DNA of 23,765 bases from a virus: positions 1-23,765 of IMG/VR virus record IMGVR_UViG_3300046468_000044; one strand, written 5' to 3'. This document shows, one piece after another, positions 1,988 to 20,176 of this stretch. The translations under genes were made by a program, and so were the position numbers. The notes under the pieces were generated by a model. That model searched no databases and was not told where the DNA came from. It saw only the letters and a program-made list of their open reading frames with translations. Position 1 is the first letter of the stretch, and every line of letters starts with the position of its first letter.

Positions 1988-3153
1988 TATTTAATTTTTA
2001 CACAATTAGGAACTGTTTTACCGTCTAATACTTTAGTTCCCTTTTGTTCGTAACCGTCCCAACAAGGTGATTTTAAATTATGCGATTCACAAGGCATAAA
2101 CCAAGTTTTTCCTTCAAATTCGTGTTCGTGATATTTGTCGCAACCAATATCTTTAGCAGCTTTTTTAGCCGCTTCTTTAGTTGAATACGCTAGTCTATCG
2201 TCAATTATAGCAGTTTCATTATCAATTATATTTGAATCCATTTCTAATTGCTTTAACTTAGATTCAGCCCAAGTTTTTGCAGACTTACCGCCCCATAATA
2301 AATATGAAATAGTTCCGCAAGCTTCTGTATCTTTTTCGTTGTAATATTCTTCAGCTCTTGACAAATAAGAAAACATTCTTTTAATTGTTTCTTTTGTGAT
2401 TGCTTTACCTTGTGCTAATTGTTGAGCCCTTACTTTTCCTATTTGTGTAGCACATTTATTATTTACTTTTTCATTAAGCTCAATACCTCTCTTTGCGTTA
2501 TTCTTTACTGAATCAGGATAATCAGAGTATGATTCTAGATCTACTTCTTCATTCTTTAATATAGCAGTTACTTGAGTTAATAAATATTCAGCTTCTAATT
2601 CATCAATAGCTGCTAGTTCTTCTTCAATAGACTCTTTAGGTCTTTCCATACGATCTGCAAAATATCCTTCTATACTGAAGCCCTTGACTTTGTTTGTGCG
2701 AACAAATTCGTTCCAGATCTTATCGTTGTTTACTTTTACAGAACCAACCCAAGTACCTAGTGGCAAATCCATACCATACTTTACTGACTTGTCGTGAACT
2801 TTATCTTCTACTATCCAAGATTCGACTAAGCTAAGTCCGTTTATTTCATACTGATGTTCTAGTGTAGCGTTGTTTTGTTTGCTATTCATTAAATACATCT
2901 GGCTAGCTTTTAACACAGTATCTTTTGAGAAATATATATAATACTCGTCTTCACCGTTTCGTCTGTATATCGGCTTGTTAGGCACTAATAAAGCACCCAT
3001 AAGTATTCTTCTTTCTTTATCAACTTCAGCTAGTTTAAACTCTTGACTTTTCAAAGCTACAAATTCTTCTTCAATCGCTGGAGATTCTACTACGCTAATA
3101 GCTTCTATCCCTAATTCGCTTTCTTCGTCTAATATTAGTTCAACTATTCTCAT
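1987..3153 (-). CDS. XkdF-like prohead protease with C-terminal Cys/His modules
   Basis: This 388-residue protein has three parts. Residues 1-170 match the XkdF/prohead protease pattern: the SPAIEEEF start, MGALLVPNKPIYR, LEHQ with a candidate catalytic His100, and KGFSIEGYF with a candidate catalytic Ser160. Residues 206-303 form a helical module starting SDYPDSVKNNAKRG and containing GKVRAQQLAQGKAITKET and a GTISYLLWGG segment, which I recall as a recurrent module in phage structural proteins. Residues 320-388 hold Cys and His residues (C338, H342, H344, C355, H358, C364, C384), including CWDGYEQKGTK, and could bind metal. The protease would cleave scaffold and capsid during maturation. Known prohead proteases are usually nearer 200 residues, so the C-terminal half is an addition. 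Confidence 0.75.
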   Translation of the reverse strand: MRIVELILDEESELGIEAISVVESPAIEEEFVALKSQEFKLAEVDKERRILMGALLVPNKPIYRRNGEDEYYIYFSKDTVLKASQMYLMNSKQNNATLEHQYEINGLSLVESWIVEDKVHDKSVKYGMDLPLGTWVGSVKVNNDKIWNEFVRTNKVKGFSIEGYFADRMERPKESIEEELAAIDELEAEYLLTQVTAILKNEEVDLESYSDYPDSVKNNAKRGIELNEKVNNKCATQIGKVRAQQLAQGKAITKETIKRMFSYLSRAEEYYNEKDTEACGTISYLLWGGKSAKTWAESKLKQLEMDSNIIDNETAIIDDRLAYSTKEAAKKAAKDIGCDKYHEHEFEGKTWFMPCESHNLKSPCWDGYEQKGTKVLDGKTVPNCVKIK

Positions 3154-3188: not shown

Positions 3189-5363
3189 TTATCCTATTGT
3201 AGCTCCTTCAACAATATTGTTTTGTAAACTCTGTGCTGTTGTTACGTCATTAGCAACTACATACGTTTGAATTGGTTGTTGTGATTGTCCTCCTATTGCA
3301 TCAGCTAACTGACTAGATTCGCTAGAGCCAACTATATTAAAAGACGGAGGAGTTGGAACAGAACCACCACCGCCACCACCACCGCCAGCTGGTGCAGAGC
3401 CACTAACAGATTTAGAATCACCTTTAATAGAACTAATAGTTTTAGTTGCACTTGCAACAGTTGAGCCTATTGATAAAGCAGCTTTAGCTGTATTAATAGC
3501 AACGAAAGGCATACCAGCAGTTAATGGTGAAGCAGCTGTTGCCGCTGCATTTGCTCTACCAGTGTCTGAAATAGTTGAAGAAACTGACTTACTAGCAGTT
3601 CTTACAACGTCAGCAATCGCTAGAGCCTTTCCTACTTTCTCCATTTTCTTGCCGCCTATACTTATAATGTTTTGTAAATCTTCAAAACCTTTTCTGTATT
3701 GATCTTCTTTAAATTCTTCTTGTAATTTTACTCTTTCAGTTTCAGCTTCACTAAATTGTTCTTCTAAAGCTTTTATTTGATCATTAGAAAGTGTTTTAAA
3801 AAACATTTTATCTAACAACAACAGTTGCTCACGTTCTCTTAATATCTCTCTTTGCTCTTGAAAAGTTTGGTCTTCAAAATCTTTATCTAATTTAAGTTCT
3901 GATATTAATTGTTCTTGTTGTTTTAACTTGTCAGCAGCATCTTTTATTTGTTTTTTCTTTCTTCTTTCTTCGTCTTTTTTATCAAATTCAGCTTGTTTAG
4001 CTGCTAGTTTTTCATCTAATGAATCTTCAAGCTCTTGTGTTTTTAAGCCAGCTTCTTCTGCTTCTTTTAATAATTTTTCGTTATGTTCTTTTATTTTTGT
4101 TAATTGTAATGCTCTAGCTTCAGCTTCTTTGTTTGCTTCAGCATCTCTAATTTTAGATCTTAAGTCCGCAAGTTTTTTAGCTTCTTCTTTTTCAATATCT
4201 TCTTGTGATTTACCTTTTTTAGAATCTTCTTTTCTTTTCTTAGGCTTACCAAATTCAGTGAAATCTAGTCTTTTTGTTTCTGCATCAATAGTGTCTTGTA
4301 TTAAAGCTCTTTGTTTTGTTAAAGAAGATATGTCTTTAGCTATGCTTTCTTGTTTCATCTTAGAAACTCTGATCTGTCTATCTAATGATCTTTTTTCAGC
4401 TACACTTGTAGATGCTAATTTTTGAGCAAGCAGTTCTGAAAGCTTTGCACTTTCGACCATAAACTTGTTATTCTCTTGACCTATTAAAGTTTGAGCTTGC
4501 AGTTCATCACTATATAATGCTTCTATGTTTGTAAGTATAGCTTTGTTTTTAGCTTGTACTTTTATAGCTTTAACTTGGTCGTCTATAAATGCCAAAGAAT
4601 CTGCTGTAAGTTCGTTGTTTTCGTCTAATTCTAAATTAGCATCTTTATACTTTTCATTTAAACCATCTACAACATTTTTAAGATTCTCTCCTTTTAAAGC
4701 TCCGCTCTCATAAGCTCTTGCAACTGTTTTTAATTCTGTTGTTTGCTTTGCAATAGATTGATTTAATGCTTCTGCTTCTGCTTGTAAAGCCTCTCTAGCT
4801 GCTTTACTTTCTGCTGAAATAAAACCAAACATTTCTTTAATCTTATCAAAATTAGCAACAACTAAACCAATTCCAACAGCTAAAGCACCAATACCAGTAG
4901 CGATTAAAGCACCTCGTAAACCTTTTAAGCCAATAGTAAAACTTTTGATTCCTTTAAAAGCAGAAAGAAAACCTTTTTTAAGTTTTACAACTTTAGTTGC
5001 ATAACCGCCAGTTAATTTGTCAATTCCTCTAATTATGTTAGTGTTGTCTTTTTGAGCATCTTTAAAGTTATTGACAACTTGTGTTGCAGCTCTTTGCTCA
5101 ACTGCTAACTTCTTAAGACCTAAACGTTGATCAGTCAACGCATCTTTACGTGCTGTTAGTTGTTGTTTAAGTTGTTTTTCTTGTGCTAAATTTACTTTAC
5201 CAGAAGCATTGTATTTATCAAGAGCCTGTTTAGCTTTAGCATATTCTTCTTCTAAAAGAACAAGTATTTCTCTTTGTTCGTCAATAGTTACATTGATAGA
5301 CTTAAGATTCTTTTCAGCTTGCTTGCTGTCTACATTTATTTCTATTGTTTTTTCTATCGCCAT
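3189..5363 (-). CDS. Tail tape measure protein
   Basis: This 724-residue protein has long charged coiled-coil stretches (about 1-110 and 380-600), a hydrophobic segment at about 149-171 (GALIATGIGALAVGIG) and a helical Ala/Ser-rich region near 590-650. A run of eight glycines then precedes a Ser/Gln-rich C-terminus. Coiled coil plus one hydrophobic patch is the usual make-up of siphovirus tape measure proteins, which set tail length and help DNA enter the cell. At roughly 0.15 nm per residue this length would suit a tail of about 100 nm. The start overlaps the upstream 46-residue gene by 10 bases. No lysozyme or peptidase domain is obvious. Confidence 0.85.
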   Translation of the reverse strand: MAIEKTIEINVDSKQAEKNLKSINVTIDEQREILVLLEEEYAKAKQALDKYNASGKVNLAQEKQLKQQLTARKDALTDQRLGLKKLAVEQRAATQVVNNFKDAQKDNTNIIRGIDKLTGGYATKVVKLKKGFLSAFKGIKSFTIGLKGLRGALIATGIGALAVGIGLVVANFDKIKEMFGFISAESKAAREALQAEAEALNQSIAKQTTELKTVARAYESGALKGENLKNVVDGLNEKYKDANLELDENNELTADSLAFIDDQVKAIKVQAKNKAILTNIEALYSDELQAQTLIGQENNKFMVESAKLSELLAQKLASTSVAEKRSLDRQIRVSKMKQESIAKDISSLTKQRALIQDTIDAETKRLDFTEFGKPKKRKEDSKKGKSQEDIEKEEAKKLADLRSKIRDAEANKEAEARALQLTKIKEHNEKLLKEAEEAGLKTQELEDSLDEKLAAKQAEFDKKDEERRKKKQIKDAADKLKQQEQLISELKLDKDFEDQTFQEQREILREREQLLLLDKMFFKTLSNDQIKALEEQFSEAETERVKLQEEFKEDQYRKGFEDLQNIISIGGKKMEKVGKALAIADVVRTASKSVSSTISDTGRANAAATAASPLTAGMPFVAINTAKAALSIGSTVASATKTISSIKGDSKSVSGSAPAGGGGGGGGSVPTPPSFNIVGSSESSQLADAIGGQSQQPIQTYVVANDVTTAQSLQNNIVEGATIG

Positions 5364-8978: not shown

Positions 8979-9575
8979 TTATTTCTTTGTTATATTTACT
9001 TGTATTTGTTTTTCAATACCTACTGAGTAAGCTTCTATTAATTCTTGAGGTAATCTTTTAAAAGCTGCTTCAAACGGTTTAGTAAAAAACATACTAGGCT
9101 TGATACCTCTGTTGTATATGTTGCTAGCTATGATGTATCCTACTGAATCAAAGCCACCTTTTGCAAATCTACCAGTTGATACTTTCTTTCCGTTTACAGT
9201 TTTAGTTTCTCTAAATCTTATATTCTTTTGTTTAGCAAATATTGACATTCGCTTTACAAAATCTTTAAACGTTCCGCTTTTACTGCCACTTCCAAAACGA
9301 TAAGGAGCATTTGGTGCTTGTTGACCCGTTATCTTTGCGTTTGGCGATACTTTGCTTGGATCATCTCCTTTGACACCTTTGTCTTGAAACTTACCATAAT
9401 CTTCCATTTCTAGAATAAGCTTAAAGCCTTTAGATGTCTTACTAACTTGACCACCTATTGTGTTATACAAGTCACCACCAGCTTTGTTGTCTCTAGCTAG
9501 ATTTAATCTGCTTTCATCTATAACAAACTTAGCAAACTGATTTAAAACTTTATCAACTTCTGGATTGACTAGCAT
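8979..9575 (-). CDS. HK97 gp10-like neck/tail completion protein
   Basis: This 198-residue basic protein contains a DYGKFQDKGVKG segment and, near the C-terminus, GIKPSMFFTKPFEAAF. The pattern of a helical N-terminus, a central GxGxxxGTF patch and a late RxKPSxFFTKPF motif matches the HK97 gp10 / head-tail joining group. These proteins act at the head-tail junction or during tail completion. The start overlaps the end of the preceding gene by 7 bases. Basic charge is usual for proteins near the DNA channel. The family call rests on these motifs and on gene position only. Confidence 0.6.
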   Translation of the reverse strand: MLVNPEVDKVLNQFAKFVIDESRLNLARDNKAGGDLYNTIGGQVSKTSKGFKLILEMEDYGKFQDKGVKGDDPSKVSPNAKITGQQAPNAPYRFGSGSKSGTFKDFVKRMSIFAKQKNIRFRETKTVNGKKVSTGRFAKGGFDSVGYIIASNIYNRGIKPSMFFTKPFEAAFKRLPQELIEAYSVGIEKQIQVNITKK

Positions 9576-10039
9576 ATTGTAATATCGTTGTTTACAAATA
9601 CGTTAAACGTTGCACTCCAACCAGCCATCTTGTTTTCAAATCTTTCATAAAAAGGCTCGCAGTTTGCATTACCATCTAATTGATATTGATCATTGTATAG
9701 ATTGCCTTTTCTAAGAACTTGTATTAGTTTATTTACAACTTGAAGCTGAGTGTTCAACACGTCTTGTTCGTTATTGTTACCTCTAAAAATATCTGTTGTC
9801 TTTTCTTTGCTTTCGTCTACAACGTCCATTGCTAAGACACTAACATTAAAAGTCAATACTGATTCGTCAGCTGTTACGTTATTTATTATAATATGACATA
9901 AAGGGAAAATGCTTTGCTTTGATAAGTCAATATCGTATATGTCGCCAGTTGTAACAGTGTTCACGTTTACATCGCTTAGTAGTTGTTGCTCTATTGCTTC
10001 AGTTAATAAATAAAAGCCTCTTATTCCTGTATTGCTCAT
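9569..10039 (-). CDS. Tail-terminator-like protein
   Basis: This 156-residue protein begins MSNTGIRGFYLLTEAIEQ and has a central strand-rich part (FPLCHIIINNVTADESVLTFNV) and a late FERFENKMAGWSATFNV-type segment, a layout like tail-terminator and head-tail connector proteins. Its ATG overlaps the TGA of the frameshift extension of the upstream gene (ATGA), which is strong evidence that the extension is translated. The likely role is capping the tail tube or joining it to the head. I cannot separate these by eye. Confidence 0.55.
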   Translation of the reverse strand: MSNTGIRGFYLLTEAIEQQLLSDVNVNTVTTGDIYDIDLSKQSIFPLCHIIINNVTADESVLTFNVSVLAMDVVDESKEKTTDIFRGNNNEQDVLNTQLQVVNKLIQVLRKGNLYNDQYQLDGNANCEPFYERFENKMAGWSATFNVFVNNDITIC

Positions 10040-10766
10040 TTAAACTTATTTTTTATTTGTCTTTGTTCTATTTCGTTTTTTTCTTTTTCATACGCTAAAT
10101 ATGTCAAGCACTCGTGAACATTTAATTTAGTGATATGTTTAAATCTTGTAATATCACCTTGAGCGATTGCATAGATTGAATTGTACCAACCCCATTTGGC
10201 TGTGAAATTAGATACTGAGCTAAAGTCACCTCGTTCGTTTTCTTGGAAGAGTTCAGTATAATTTTTGATAATTCCGTTCCTAAACTCAAAAAAAAAACTA
10301 TTGAGCCTAGAACTGCATCTAATGGAAATTCTTTGGCAACTTCATAGTTATCTGGATTATATGACTCAATTACATAACGCTTACCTTTTCGCATCTTAAT
10401 AGGTCTATATAACACATTCATAGCTCTATGTAAATTATCGTTATCACCGATGAAAGTATCTAGATCAACATACTCACCGAAGCTCATATCCTCAAGACTT
10501 GGAATGAATCCGTATTCTTGATTATTTATTTTAAATGTATTTATTAATTGATGTTTAGTATCAAACATATTATTAATAGATGTACAAACTTCAGAGACAT
10601 CTGTTGCTTTCATACCTCTAGCTACTAAAGGTGACACTCTGCAAAATATCTCTATCATTCGCAAATGCACTTCTGCTTCGTTGTCAAAGTCTATTTTATC
10701 AAACTCTTGATATTGATATAATGTGATTTCGTTTAAGCTTGTAGGTATGTTTAATTTATACTCCAT
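10036..10766 (-). CDS. Tail assembly chaperone, -1 frameshift product (GT-like, about 243 residues)
   Basis: Ribosomes that slip back one base on the U10 run (10288-10297) after codon 159 would read 84 further codons to a TGA at 10036-10038. The extension includes the compact segment AKWGWYNSIYAIAQGDITRF, then KLNVHECLTYLAYEKEKN and a basic end. This looks like real protein, and I recall the WGWY...GDIT...CLTYL pattern in Bacteroidetes phage proteins. The TGA overlaps the ATG of the next gene. Without the shift, 82 bases would be non-coding in an otherwise fully packed region. A short form plus a -1 extended form is the hallmark of siphovirus tail assembly chaperones (lambda G/GT). An extra base in one copy of the homopolymer would give the same result. 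Confidence 0.7.
10122..10766 (-). CDS. Tail assembly chaperone, unshifted product (G-like, 214 residues)
   Basis: The gene starts MEYKLNIPTSLNEITLYQYQ directly after the terminase gene and is preceded by the A/T leader block. It is helical with acidic patches. The segment VLGSIVFFLSLGTELSKI spans the U10 run and still looks natural in the zero frame for about 15-20 residues beyond it. The remainder up to the stop at 10122 is low in recognisable pattern. This is the expected form of a chaperone whose main product terminates soon after the slip site. Such proteins coat the tape measure during tail assembly. It lies six genes from the tape measure (counting the 46-residue gene) rather than next to it, which is unusual, so the chaperone label is inferred mainly from the frameshift. 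Confidence 0.65.
   Translation of the reverse strand: MEYKLNIPTSLNEITLYQYQEFDKIDFDNEAEVHLRMIEIFCRVSPLVARGMKATDVSEVCTSINNMFDTKHQLINTFKINNQEYGFIPSLEDMSFGEYVDLDTFIGDNDNLHRAMNVLYRPIKMRKGKRYVIESYNPDNYEVAKEFPLDAVLGSIVFFLSLGTELSKIILNSSKKTNEVTLAQYLISQPNGVGTIQSMQSLKVILQDLNISLN
10288..10297 (-). other. U10 slippery run for -1 frameshifting
   Basis: The minus strand reads GTT TTT TTT TTG in the zero frame. This contains the heptamers U UUU UUU and U UUU UUG in the correct phase for tandem slippage to -1. A -1 shift here opens an 84-codon extension ending on the next gene's start. RNA polymerase slippage adding one U would give the same product. I did not identify a convincing downstream stem-loop or pseudoknot by eye. 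Confidence 0.7.
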
Positions 10767-10801
10767 ATTTATATATAAACGTTTTTAATTTATTTTAGTG
10801 A
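10767..10801 (-). promoter_or_regulatory. A/T leader block before the chaperone gene
   Basis: This 35-base gap after the large terminase contains AAAATAAATTAAAAAC followed by GTTTATATATAAAT directly before the ATG. It is nearly the same as the equally long gap at 3154-3188. Two unrelated downstream genes sharing such a gap, length included, suggests a functional element rather than random AT-richness. Confidence 0.55.
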
Positions 10802-11956
10802 TTAAGACACAGCGTATTTACCAAAGTTTGGTCTACTCATTATTGAATATGTAGCGTACCTCACAGCATCTATTATGTGATTGTTTTTATCTACTGGCTT
10901 ATTTGTTAGCTTACCGCTTCTATCTTCAAGCCATTTATAATTTCTAAACTCTTGTATTGCATTATTACTATCGCTTGTTATATGTATCTTAAAACGCTTT
11001 AGTAAGTCTATACCTGCGTTGATACTATCACGACCTTTTAAACTTGGTTGTATATTGTGACCCATTCTTCTAAGTTCATCAATTAATCTTGGTTCAGCTG
11101 CATCGAAATAAATAGGACTTCTTCTTTCTACTTCTTGTTTGAAGTGATCGCTTAAGTCTCTTGTTGTCATCATAGTTCTATACAAGTGTTCTTTGATATA
11201 TAGATTATGATCTTTTTTGTAAACACTCACTAACGTGCTAGGATCGTTTGTGTATCCTGCATCAGCACCATAGCTTATAAGCTCCGCATCGTGTGGTATA
11301 TTTGAAACTTCTGCATAGTTGAATATAGTAGCTTTAGAAACACCTTTCTCTCCTAGTCCGTATATCTGCCAATATTGCTCGTCTGTTTCTTTTAGTCTTT
11401 CAATCTCTCTTACTATGCTAGTGTCTAGAAACTTGTTATCTAAATATGTTGTTTTGTAGAATTCAACATCTTCACGATTAAGAACTTTGTCGTAGATCCA
11501 ATGATATTCATCTGACGGATTATAATCAAGCACCACTTTTTCAGTTGTACGAAATATAAGTTGTTGCCAATCTTCATAGTCAAGTTCGTTAGCTTCGTTA
11601 ATGAATAAGAATTCACGTTTACGACCACGTATCTTTTGCGGTTGATCTACTGAAATAAATTCAACTAGATTATCGTCTAAGTTATATTCGCTATTTGATT
11701 TATTGTGATTTGCTTCGTCATACTTTTTATGTGTTTTAAGTATATCAATAAAGTCACGCATTACAGAAGAACGCACAGCTGGAAAAGTCTTTCTACAAAT
11801 AGTTATTGTTTTGCCTTTGTTTGTTTGACAATAGTGAAATATAATATAAAGTAATATATTAAAAGTCTTACCTGATCTAGTACCACCTTGTTCAACTACT
11901 ATCTTTGAATCACTATCTAGTAAGTGTTCAAATACTACGTTTACATCAACATTCAA
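10802..11956 (-). CDS. terL: Terminase large subunit
   Basis: This 384-residue packaging motor resembles the PBSX/Terminase_3 group. The ATPase half has a Walker A at residues 24-31 (GGTRSGKT) and a Walker B FLFINEANE at 116-124 with the catalytic Glu121. The nuclease half has the expected acidic residues in GADAG (Asp232), YFDAAEP (Asp285) and HIIDAVRY (Asp363). The protein translocates DNA into the prohead through the portal and cuts the concatemer. There is no in-frame ATG before Walker A, and an in-frame stop lies immediately upstream, so the start must be the TTG at 11954-11956. This abuts the stop of the small subunit, consistent with coupled translation. Confidence 0.93.
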   Translation of the reverse strand: MNVDVNVVFEHLLDSDSKIVVEQGGTRSGKTFNILLYIIFHYCQTNKGKTITICRKTFPAVRSSVMRDFIDILKTHKKYDEANHNKSNSEYNLDDNLVEFISVDQPQKIRGRKREFLFINEANELDYEDWQQLIFRTTEKVVLDYNPSDEYHWIYDKVLNREDVEFYKTTYLDNKFLDTSIVREIERLKETDEQYWQIYGLGEKGVSKATIFNYAEVSNIPHDAELISYGADAGYTNDPSTLVSVYKKDHNLYIKEHLYRTMMTTRDLSDHFKQEVERRSPIYFDAAEPRLIDELRRMGHNIQPSLKGRDSINAGIDLLKRFKIHITSDSNNAIQEFRNYKWLEDRSGKLTNKPVDKNNHIIDAVRYATYSIMSRPNFGKYAVS

Positions 11957-12304: not shown

Positions 12305-12346
12305 AGTTTATGTATTGTATTAATATATAAACATTTCTCTATTATT
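12305..12346 (-). promoter_or_regulatory. Leader with TTTATATATTAATA element before terS
   Basis: The 42-base gap carries GTTTATATATTAATA, the same core as the virion-gene leader blocks, but here about 15 bases separate the core from the ATG. That spacing fits a promoter element better than a ribosome-contact element. The function is inferred. Confidence 0.4.
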
Positions 12347-19972: not shown

Positions 19973-20176
19973 TTATAATTCATTAAATAGTTCGTAAGGG
20001 CTTCCGTAATTGTTTAATAAAGTATGCAAACTCATAACAACACCATAAGTCAAGTCACTTACTTTTTTTTTAGCCTCTAGTTCTTCTGTTACTTGTTCAA
20101 CCACTAAAGGAAAAGAAAAGTTCTCTTTTTTTAGCTTTGCTATATGCTCAGCTTTTAATCGTTCTTTTAAATACAT
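19973..20176 (-). CDS. First early gene, 67-residue protein
   Basis: This is the first gene downstream of the clear promoter at 20203-20232. It has a basic N-terminal helix (MYLKERLKAEHIAKLKKENF), a short loop, a charged helix (EELEAKKKVSDLTYG) and a C-terminal helix (MSLHTLLNNYGSPYELF). Being first in the early operon, it may act on the host soon after infection or regulate the operon, but no HTH or other motif is clear. A-rich leader AAAAACAAAGACAA precedes the ATG. Confidence 0.7.
   Translation of the reverse strand: MYLKERLKAEHIAKLKKENFSFPLVVEQVTEELEAKKKVSDLTYGVVMSLHTLLNNYGSPYELFNEL

Follow-up and report, generated by a model that had tools for sequence, protein, structure and literature searches.

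A conserved T9–T11 run and a long dual-coding overlap point to a two-form tail assembly protein probably produced by transcriptional slippage

Frame switching in the genes of tail assembly chaperones is among the most widespread recoding events of phages and is treated as ribosomal. In phage lambda, G and G-T are made from one start, the long form being in the minority; the two frames overlap by ~6 codons, and it is the ribosome that slips, at a signal other than a homopolymer run. In phage P2, E and E+E' (Phage_TAC_7, phrog_103/phrog_166) depend on a T run, GGTTTTTTG, which is a T6; the zero-frame tail is ~6 codons long and the tape measure gene follows immediately. Averaged over one large set of annotated phage tail assembly chaperones, slip and stop are 26 nt apart (PMC10885494). 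A transcriptional solution is represented by the cellular dnaX gene of Thermus thermophilus and other slippage genes, where nine identical A or T bases give two product lengths (PMC5009743); for Thermus dnaX the slippage was shown by experiment. The potyvirus P3N-PIPO also combines a dual-coding overlap with a second frame reached by polymerase slippage, but it depends on an RNA virus replicase and a GA6 signal and has no homology to the gene considered here. A literature search, with subscription journals mostly outside its scope, returned no description of transcriptional slippage in a gene of the tail assembly chaperone type.

The gene analyzed here is located in an IMG/VR virus record of 23,765 bases and 32% G+C, referred to in its entirety as the window, whose minus strand carries nearly all genes. 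Its main features are as follows.

10766..10122, minus strand: zero-frame ORF (short product), 214 aa, with an N-terminal domain at ~1–158 and an alternative tail of ~55 aa
10297..10288, minus strand: slippery T10, codons GTT TTT TTT TTG, the proposed site of the change to the −1 frame
10036..10296, minus strand: −1 frame extension, 86 codons plus TGA, predicted helical C-terminal domain of the long product
10125..10287, minus strand: dual-coding overlap, 54 codons with selection on both frames; zero-frame stop at 10122-10124
10286..10288, minus strand: third-frame stop TGA, directly at the end of the run
9569..10039, minus strand: next gene, 156 aa, its own ATG overlapping the TGA of the extension as ATGA
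10802..11956, minus strand: terminase large subunit, directly upstream (Pfam Terminase_3 and Terminase_3C; PHROG terminase families)
3189..5363, minus strand: putative tape measure protein (phrog_9483 tail length tape measure protein, E 1e-5)
10767..10781, minus strand: AT-rich ACGTTTATATATAAAT-type motif immediately ahead of the start codon, similar to the ACGTTATATA element that precedes this gene in relatives

As in lambda, a tail-region gene would yield two nested products from one start through a −1 change close to where the first frame ends. Yet no sequence similarity to G or G-T has been shown, and the overlap, mostly 53–86 codons among relatives, begins at a run of at least nine T's. 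The likeness to P2 extends to a −1 change at a T run and to a small extension at the C-terminus, with a stop that overlaps the start of the next gene. With ~165 nt from slip to stop, compared with the mean of 26 nt in annotated chaperones, the long overlap is unusual for this type of gene. The nine or more identical bases and the two product lengths are shared with Thermus dnaX, although here slippage is deduced from sequence alone.

The T10 is the longest homopolymer of the window; the only other run of at least nine is an A9 (sense) at 20063-20071, within a 67-codon ORF. A sequence-only reading of the window had proposed that the zero frame ends at 10122, leaving 82 bases unread, and that a −1 shift on GTT TTT TTT TTG opens an extension ending on the next start codon. 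These coordinates hold: between the end of the zero frame and the next ATG (10039) lie 82 bases (10121..10040), and the −1 frame, already open ahead of the run, meets no stop until the TGA at 10038..10036. With the first re-read Phe codon taken as codon one, the extension comprises 86 codons (10296..10039), 83 of them past the three Phe codons of the run.

The same arrangement recurs in relatives. Eighty loci with 63–100% identity, nearly all matching all 214 residues, have G-T9 (or T10) at the same place and an open −1 frame, which ends in the strongly conserved KWGWYNSIYxIAxGDITRFExITKLxVHECLTYLTYTKEKNEIE. T10 is also present in L002 and L003, independent contigs with an identical zero-frame protein, and in L004 and L005 (90% amino acid identity), so that a single assembly error is unlikely. 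A profile scan extended the family to loci with 28–56% identity to the Nonlabens phage P12024S, and two scans with other seeds added further loci. When the two halves were scored with separate profiles, 319 loci held both; 317 of these need a −1 change, none needs +1, and two are fused. Since 317 of the 319 need the same −1 change at a run of at least nine T's, the frame change is not a matter of chance, and the earlier proposal of two nested products is strongly supported. Among the 317, the run is T9 in 260, T10 in 55, and T11 in two, and is never shorter than nine. Conservation of the extension begins at the run itself (FFLxFR), its TGA overlaps the next ATG as ATGA in 158 of 271 relatives, and the third frame is closed within 0–7 codons past the run in all 277 sequences. 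Elsewhere in the same loci, 47 runs of at least nine T's occur in 1.6 Mb; a check of other T9 runs for a second slippage gene found nearly all of them to be terminators or leader sequence just upstream of the frameshift gene. As far as the compared sequences go, the run, both frames, and the need for a −1 change are thus all conserved.

The cultured relatives are the Nonlabens phages P12024S/L. Their gp38, at 30% identity, contains CTT TTT TTT TAT, and its −1 frame encodes a homologous extension, although the record gives gp38 and gp39 as two separate hypothetical proteins without recoding. Although annotated with its own start codon, gp39 (L082 14525-14692) is the −1 extension of gp38. The site is the same T9 one, but the zero-frame tail reaches only ~24 codons past the run. 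Likewise, phrog_32199 and phrog_38404 appear to be two halves of one long product. The carriers form a large group of phages from marine and fresh waters, and those in culture infect Flavobacteria-type hosts. A tblastn search with four different query proteins against 50,697 phage records returned nothing beyond chance except the Nonlabens phages, and a prophage search of 84,980 genomes gave one contig, from a Winogradskyella MAG. Separately, Flavobacterium phage 6H (L166 10048-10927) encodes a 191-aa structural homologue of the N-terminal domain. This homologue is followed by an unannotated gap of 304 nt that codes further in other frames, while the PHROG profile spans 293 aa; this gap reflects either sequencing errors or another recoding site.

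The short product ends in a tail that is conserved dual-coding sequence in its own right. Column entropy by zero-frame codon position, calculated from 68 distinct close relatives, is 0.49/0.31/1.26 upstream, where only the zero frame is read, and 0.21/0.76/0.24 downstream, where only the −1 frame is read. In the overlap it is 0.27/0.42/0.43; therefore, neither wobble position is free. Silent differences among 25 non-redundant relatives are correspondingly depressed in both frames, to 0.168 in the overlap versus 0.349 beyond it for the −1 frame (P 2e-4), and to 0.157 versus 0.442 upstream for the zero frame (P 1e-11). The extension thus evolves as coding sequence, as the sequence-only reading had expected. 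Amino acid identity in the overlap is 0.69 in the zero frame and 0.72 in the −1 frame. When synonymous codons were randomized under a fixed −1 protein, the probability that the zero frame stays open over the observed length was ~0.003 per lineage, taken as the geometric mean of 34 lineages. A zero-frame 'GxG' motif was also considered as independent conservation and rejected, being forced by the −1 'WGW'; the dual-coding claim therefore rests on the silent-site rates and on stop avoidance. Taken together, these measures indicate purifying selection on both frames over ~55 codons past the run. The zero-frame tail mostly has 53–86 codons, with a mode of 58 from the first run codon. In the branch of P12024/L085 it has only 19–28 codons, which indicates that the full length of the short-form tail is not needed in every lineage.

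The sequence-only reading had left open whether the ribosome or RNA polymerase slips, and the conservation of the run now favors the polymerase. An in-phase U UUU UUU heptamer is found in every sequence, whatever the run pattern, so that ribosomal slipping is possible. However, an in-phase U UUU UUN is all that the ribosome needs, and a break in the run would then be expected to be allowed at the last base of its second Phe codon. Replacing T by C at this base leaves the zero-frame protein unchanged (TTT/TTC) and, in most sequences, the −1 protein as well (TTR/CTR, Leu). At such doubly silent sites within the run, 227 T and no C were counted, equivalent to 87 : 0 cluster-sites at 80% clustering, as opposed to 344 T and 197 C (176 : 112 cluster-sites) at sites with the same type of Leu codon elsewhere in the overlap. 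A looser length filter gave 233:0 in the run and 347:198 elsewhere. Moreover, TTC is absent from the two Phe codons of the run (0/284 and 0/265), in comparison to 14–41% at six other conserved Phe positions. These results indicate that the unbroken run itself is selected. Across lineages the run is found in all three codon phases, always with a length of 9–11.

In E. coli, the shift tetramer U_UU.C outperforms U_UU.U, and heptamers of the form H_HH.U_UU.Y rank with the most efficient ones (PMC4066793). Ribosomal slipping would therefore be expected to tolerate C, although Flavobacteria-type ribosomes may differ. A stretch of nine A or T bases, for its part, causes efficient slippage of bacterial RNA polymerase in vivo (PMC5009743), and the E. 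coli enzyme prefers T runs for slippage (PMC6260861). The stimulators typical of the ribosomal mechanism were sought near the site. No stable downstream RNA structure was detected (mean z +0.17 versus −0.39 in controls, pseudoknots being outside this test), and an upstream SD-like element showed no enrichment (5.4% versus 6.2%). Known ribosomal frameshift sites do not all have a stimulator. Of the marks of programmed −1 ribosomal frameshifting, the locus displays the heptamer but revealed neither a stimulator nor tolerance of U UUU UUC, whereas it shows the mark of transcriptional slippage, an A/T homopolymer of about nine or more that is conserved as a run. Because the run is conserved at doubly silent sites, no stimulator was detected, and RNA polymerase slips at such runs, transcriptional slippage is the better supported mechanism, and the compared sequences favor it over purely ribosomal frameshifting.

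Purely ribosomal −1 frameshifting at U UUU UUU (in the window, alternatively at U UUU UUG), with the extra T's kept only by the encoded amino acids, is possible though somewhat doubtful. Besides the heptamer in phase in every sequence, it would agree with the tail assembly chaperone switches in PMC5009743, which are ribosomal, and with P2 E/E', which uses T TTT TTG. The flanking residues are also hydrophobic or aromatic, all with T-rich codons, and these amino acids (Val/Leu/Ile, then Tyr/Trp/Leu) may themselves hold the outermost T's at the two ends of the run. Such a mechanism hardly explains why the last heptamer position is C in 0 of 227 cases, compared with 36% elsewhere, although C is silent there in both frames and functional in E. 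coli; nor does it account for the lack of any run below nine among the 317 loci or of a conserved structure or SD stimulator.

Two further explanations dispense with a frame change. That two separate proteins are made, the extension being started internally as annotated for P12024S gp39 with its own ATG, is very improbable: the extension of the window lacks an ATG and its frame continues without a stop upstream into the run, conservation sets in at the run rather than at a later start, and L103 and L121 join both parts as one chain. These two fused loci appear to be run-length variants, either real or sequencing errors. L103 has T10 and L121 has T11, in each case one T more than in their relatives: the sisters of L103 (90–96% nucleotide identity) carry T9, and the nearest ones of L121 carry T10. 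In both contigs the short-form tail is still open in the other frame. The sequence-only reading would have given way to relatives with both parts in one frame and no slippery run; none was found by sequence, and L103 and L121 do not count as such since both retain the run. That the gene is truly one uninterrupted frame broken by a homopolymer sequencing or assembly error is scarcely credible, for although one extra T fuses L103 and L121 and long single-chain homologues exist in a predicted-structure library, the same −1 state occurs in 317 loci and two cultured phage genomes, the zero-frame tail is under selection not expected from an error, and the closest sisters of L103 are T9 and unfused.

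We consider it rather probable that the gene encodes a tail assembly protein, most likely a chaperone, in two forms, with the long form produced mainly by RNA polymerase slippage on the T9–T11 run. Both forms would share one N-terminal domain (~158 residues) and differ in their C-termini. In most messages the number of U's would equal that of T's in the DNA, and the short form of 214 residues with its own conserved tail would result. In a fraction of messages RNA polymerase would slip on the run, leaving one U more (or two fewer), and ordinary translation would then continue in the −1 frame to give the long form of ~243 residues, which carries the helical domain and ends on the start codon of the next gene. 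Messages slipped the other way would meet a stop right after the run. Both machines may contribute, with ribosomes slipping on the in-phase U UUU UUU adding to the long form. We infer that RNA polymerase is the main slipping machine, that the protein acts as a chaperone, and that the ratio of the forms matters for tail assembly.

For the clade as a whole, whose cultured members grow on Flavobacteriia, there is about an even chance that the ratio of chaperone forms is set by RNA polymerase slippage and not by the ribosome, and that the ~55 dual-coding codons give each form a functional C-terminus. If so, these tail genes would be the counterpart of the split between E. coli and Thermus dnaX into ribosomal and transcriptional solutions. 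A clade that keeps an unbroken run of at least nine T's, which the ribosome would not need, offers a natural test of whether transcription can do the frame switching and whether tail assembly tolerates a different product ratio. The long protein is also missing from the annotation of hundreds of phage contigs and two reference genomes.

The long form gains a helical domain of 82–95 residues, and the short form keeps its own tail of ~55 residues. Because the fused alignment A3 contained partial rows misaligned by MAFFT, the two halves were modelled separately. In the short-form model, pLDDT is ~90 at residues 10–160 and below 50 at 174–214, suggesting a confident N-terminal domain and a disordered tail. 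The extension was modelled as helices with a pLDDT of 75, i.e., moderate confidence (alignment A7 of 39). The predicted-structure library contains single chains of 226–267 residues that match both halves, indicating that the two halves belong to one protein. Long homologues in this library, BFVD, include A0A516L611 and A0A6J5N0W0.

The window protein has no significant match in Pfam, and a search of the PDB gave nothing by sequence or fold, with no fold match at E <0.1. Within the family, 17 of 40 members match phrog_166 'tail protein' (best 1.4e-4), and the frameshifted tail assembly protein gpE of P2 matches the same region of this profile at 4e-7, so that the N-terminal domains of both reach phrog_166. 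Two of the 40 members match Pfam Phage_TAC_7 (best 0.0034), and two weak fold matches are to proteins annotated as tail assembly chaperones. Direct profile comparison by hhalign was not significant and close to shuffled controls, both with P2 gpE or Mu gp41 (E 0.14) and with GpE' (E 0.33). A role as tail assembly chaperone is therefore put forward as likely, on the weak profile link to P2 gpE through phrog_166.

The sequence-only reading had regarded two nested products as the hallmark of siphovirus tail assembly chaperones. At the sequence level, the gene agrees with G/GT-type chaperones in encoding two products with a common N-terminus through a −1 change. The position of the gene does not fit: it adjoins the terminase gene and lies neither directly before the tape measure gene nor between the genes for the major tail protein and the tape measure protein. 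In the window, the order is terminase, frameshift gene, genes of 156, 198, 390, and 763 aa, and putative tape measure gene. The last of these is the fifth gene after the frameshift gene, and none of the products could be identified as a major tail protein. Owing to this non-canonical position, the protein is likened to a tail assembly chaperone in the way it would work, but is not classed as one.

Some minor observations concern the surrounding genes. A putative XkdF-type protease (Peptidase_S78_2) with a C-terminal DUF3721 match is encoded at 1990-3153, after the tape measure gene, which is an unusual order of head and tail genes. In many relatives (e.g., L167, L144, and L100), a hairpin followed by T9, a terminator, lies between the terminase and the frameshift gene, ~500–550 nt upstream of the slip, and the ACGTTATATA element is conserved just before the start codon of the frameshift gene; the terminator followed by ACGTTATATA possibly marks the start of a late transcription unit. 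Similar AT-rich TTTATATAT elements stand in the window before the frameshift gene (10767-10781) and before the 115-aa gene preceding the terminase (~12305-12335), and may represent a phage promoter motif.
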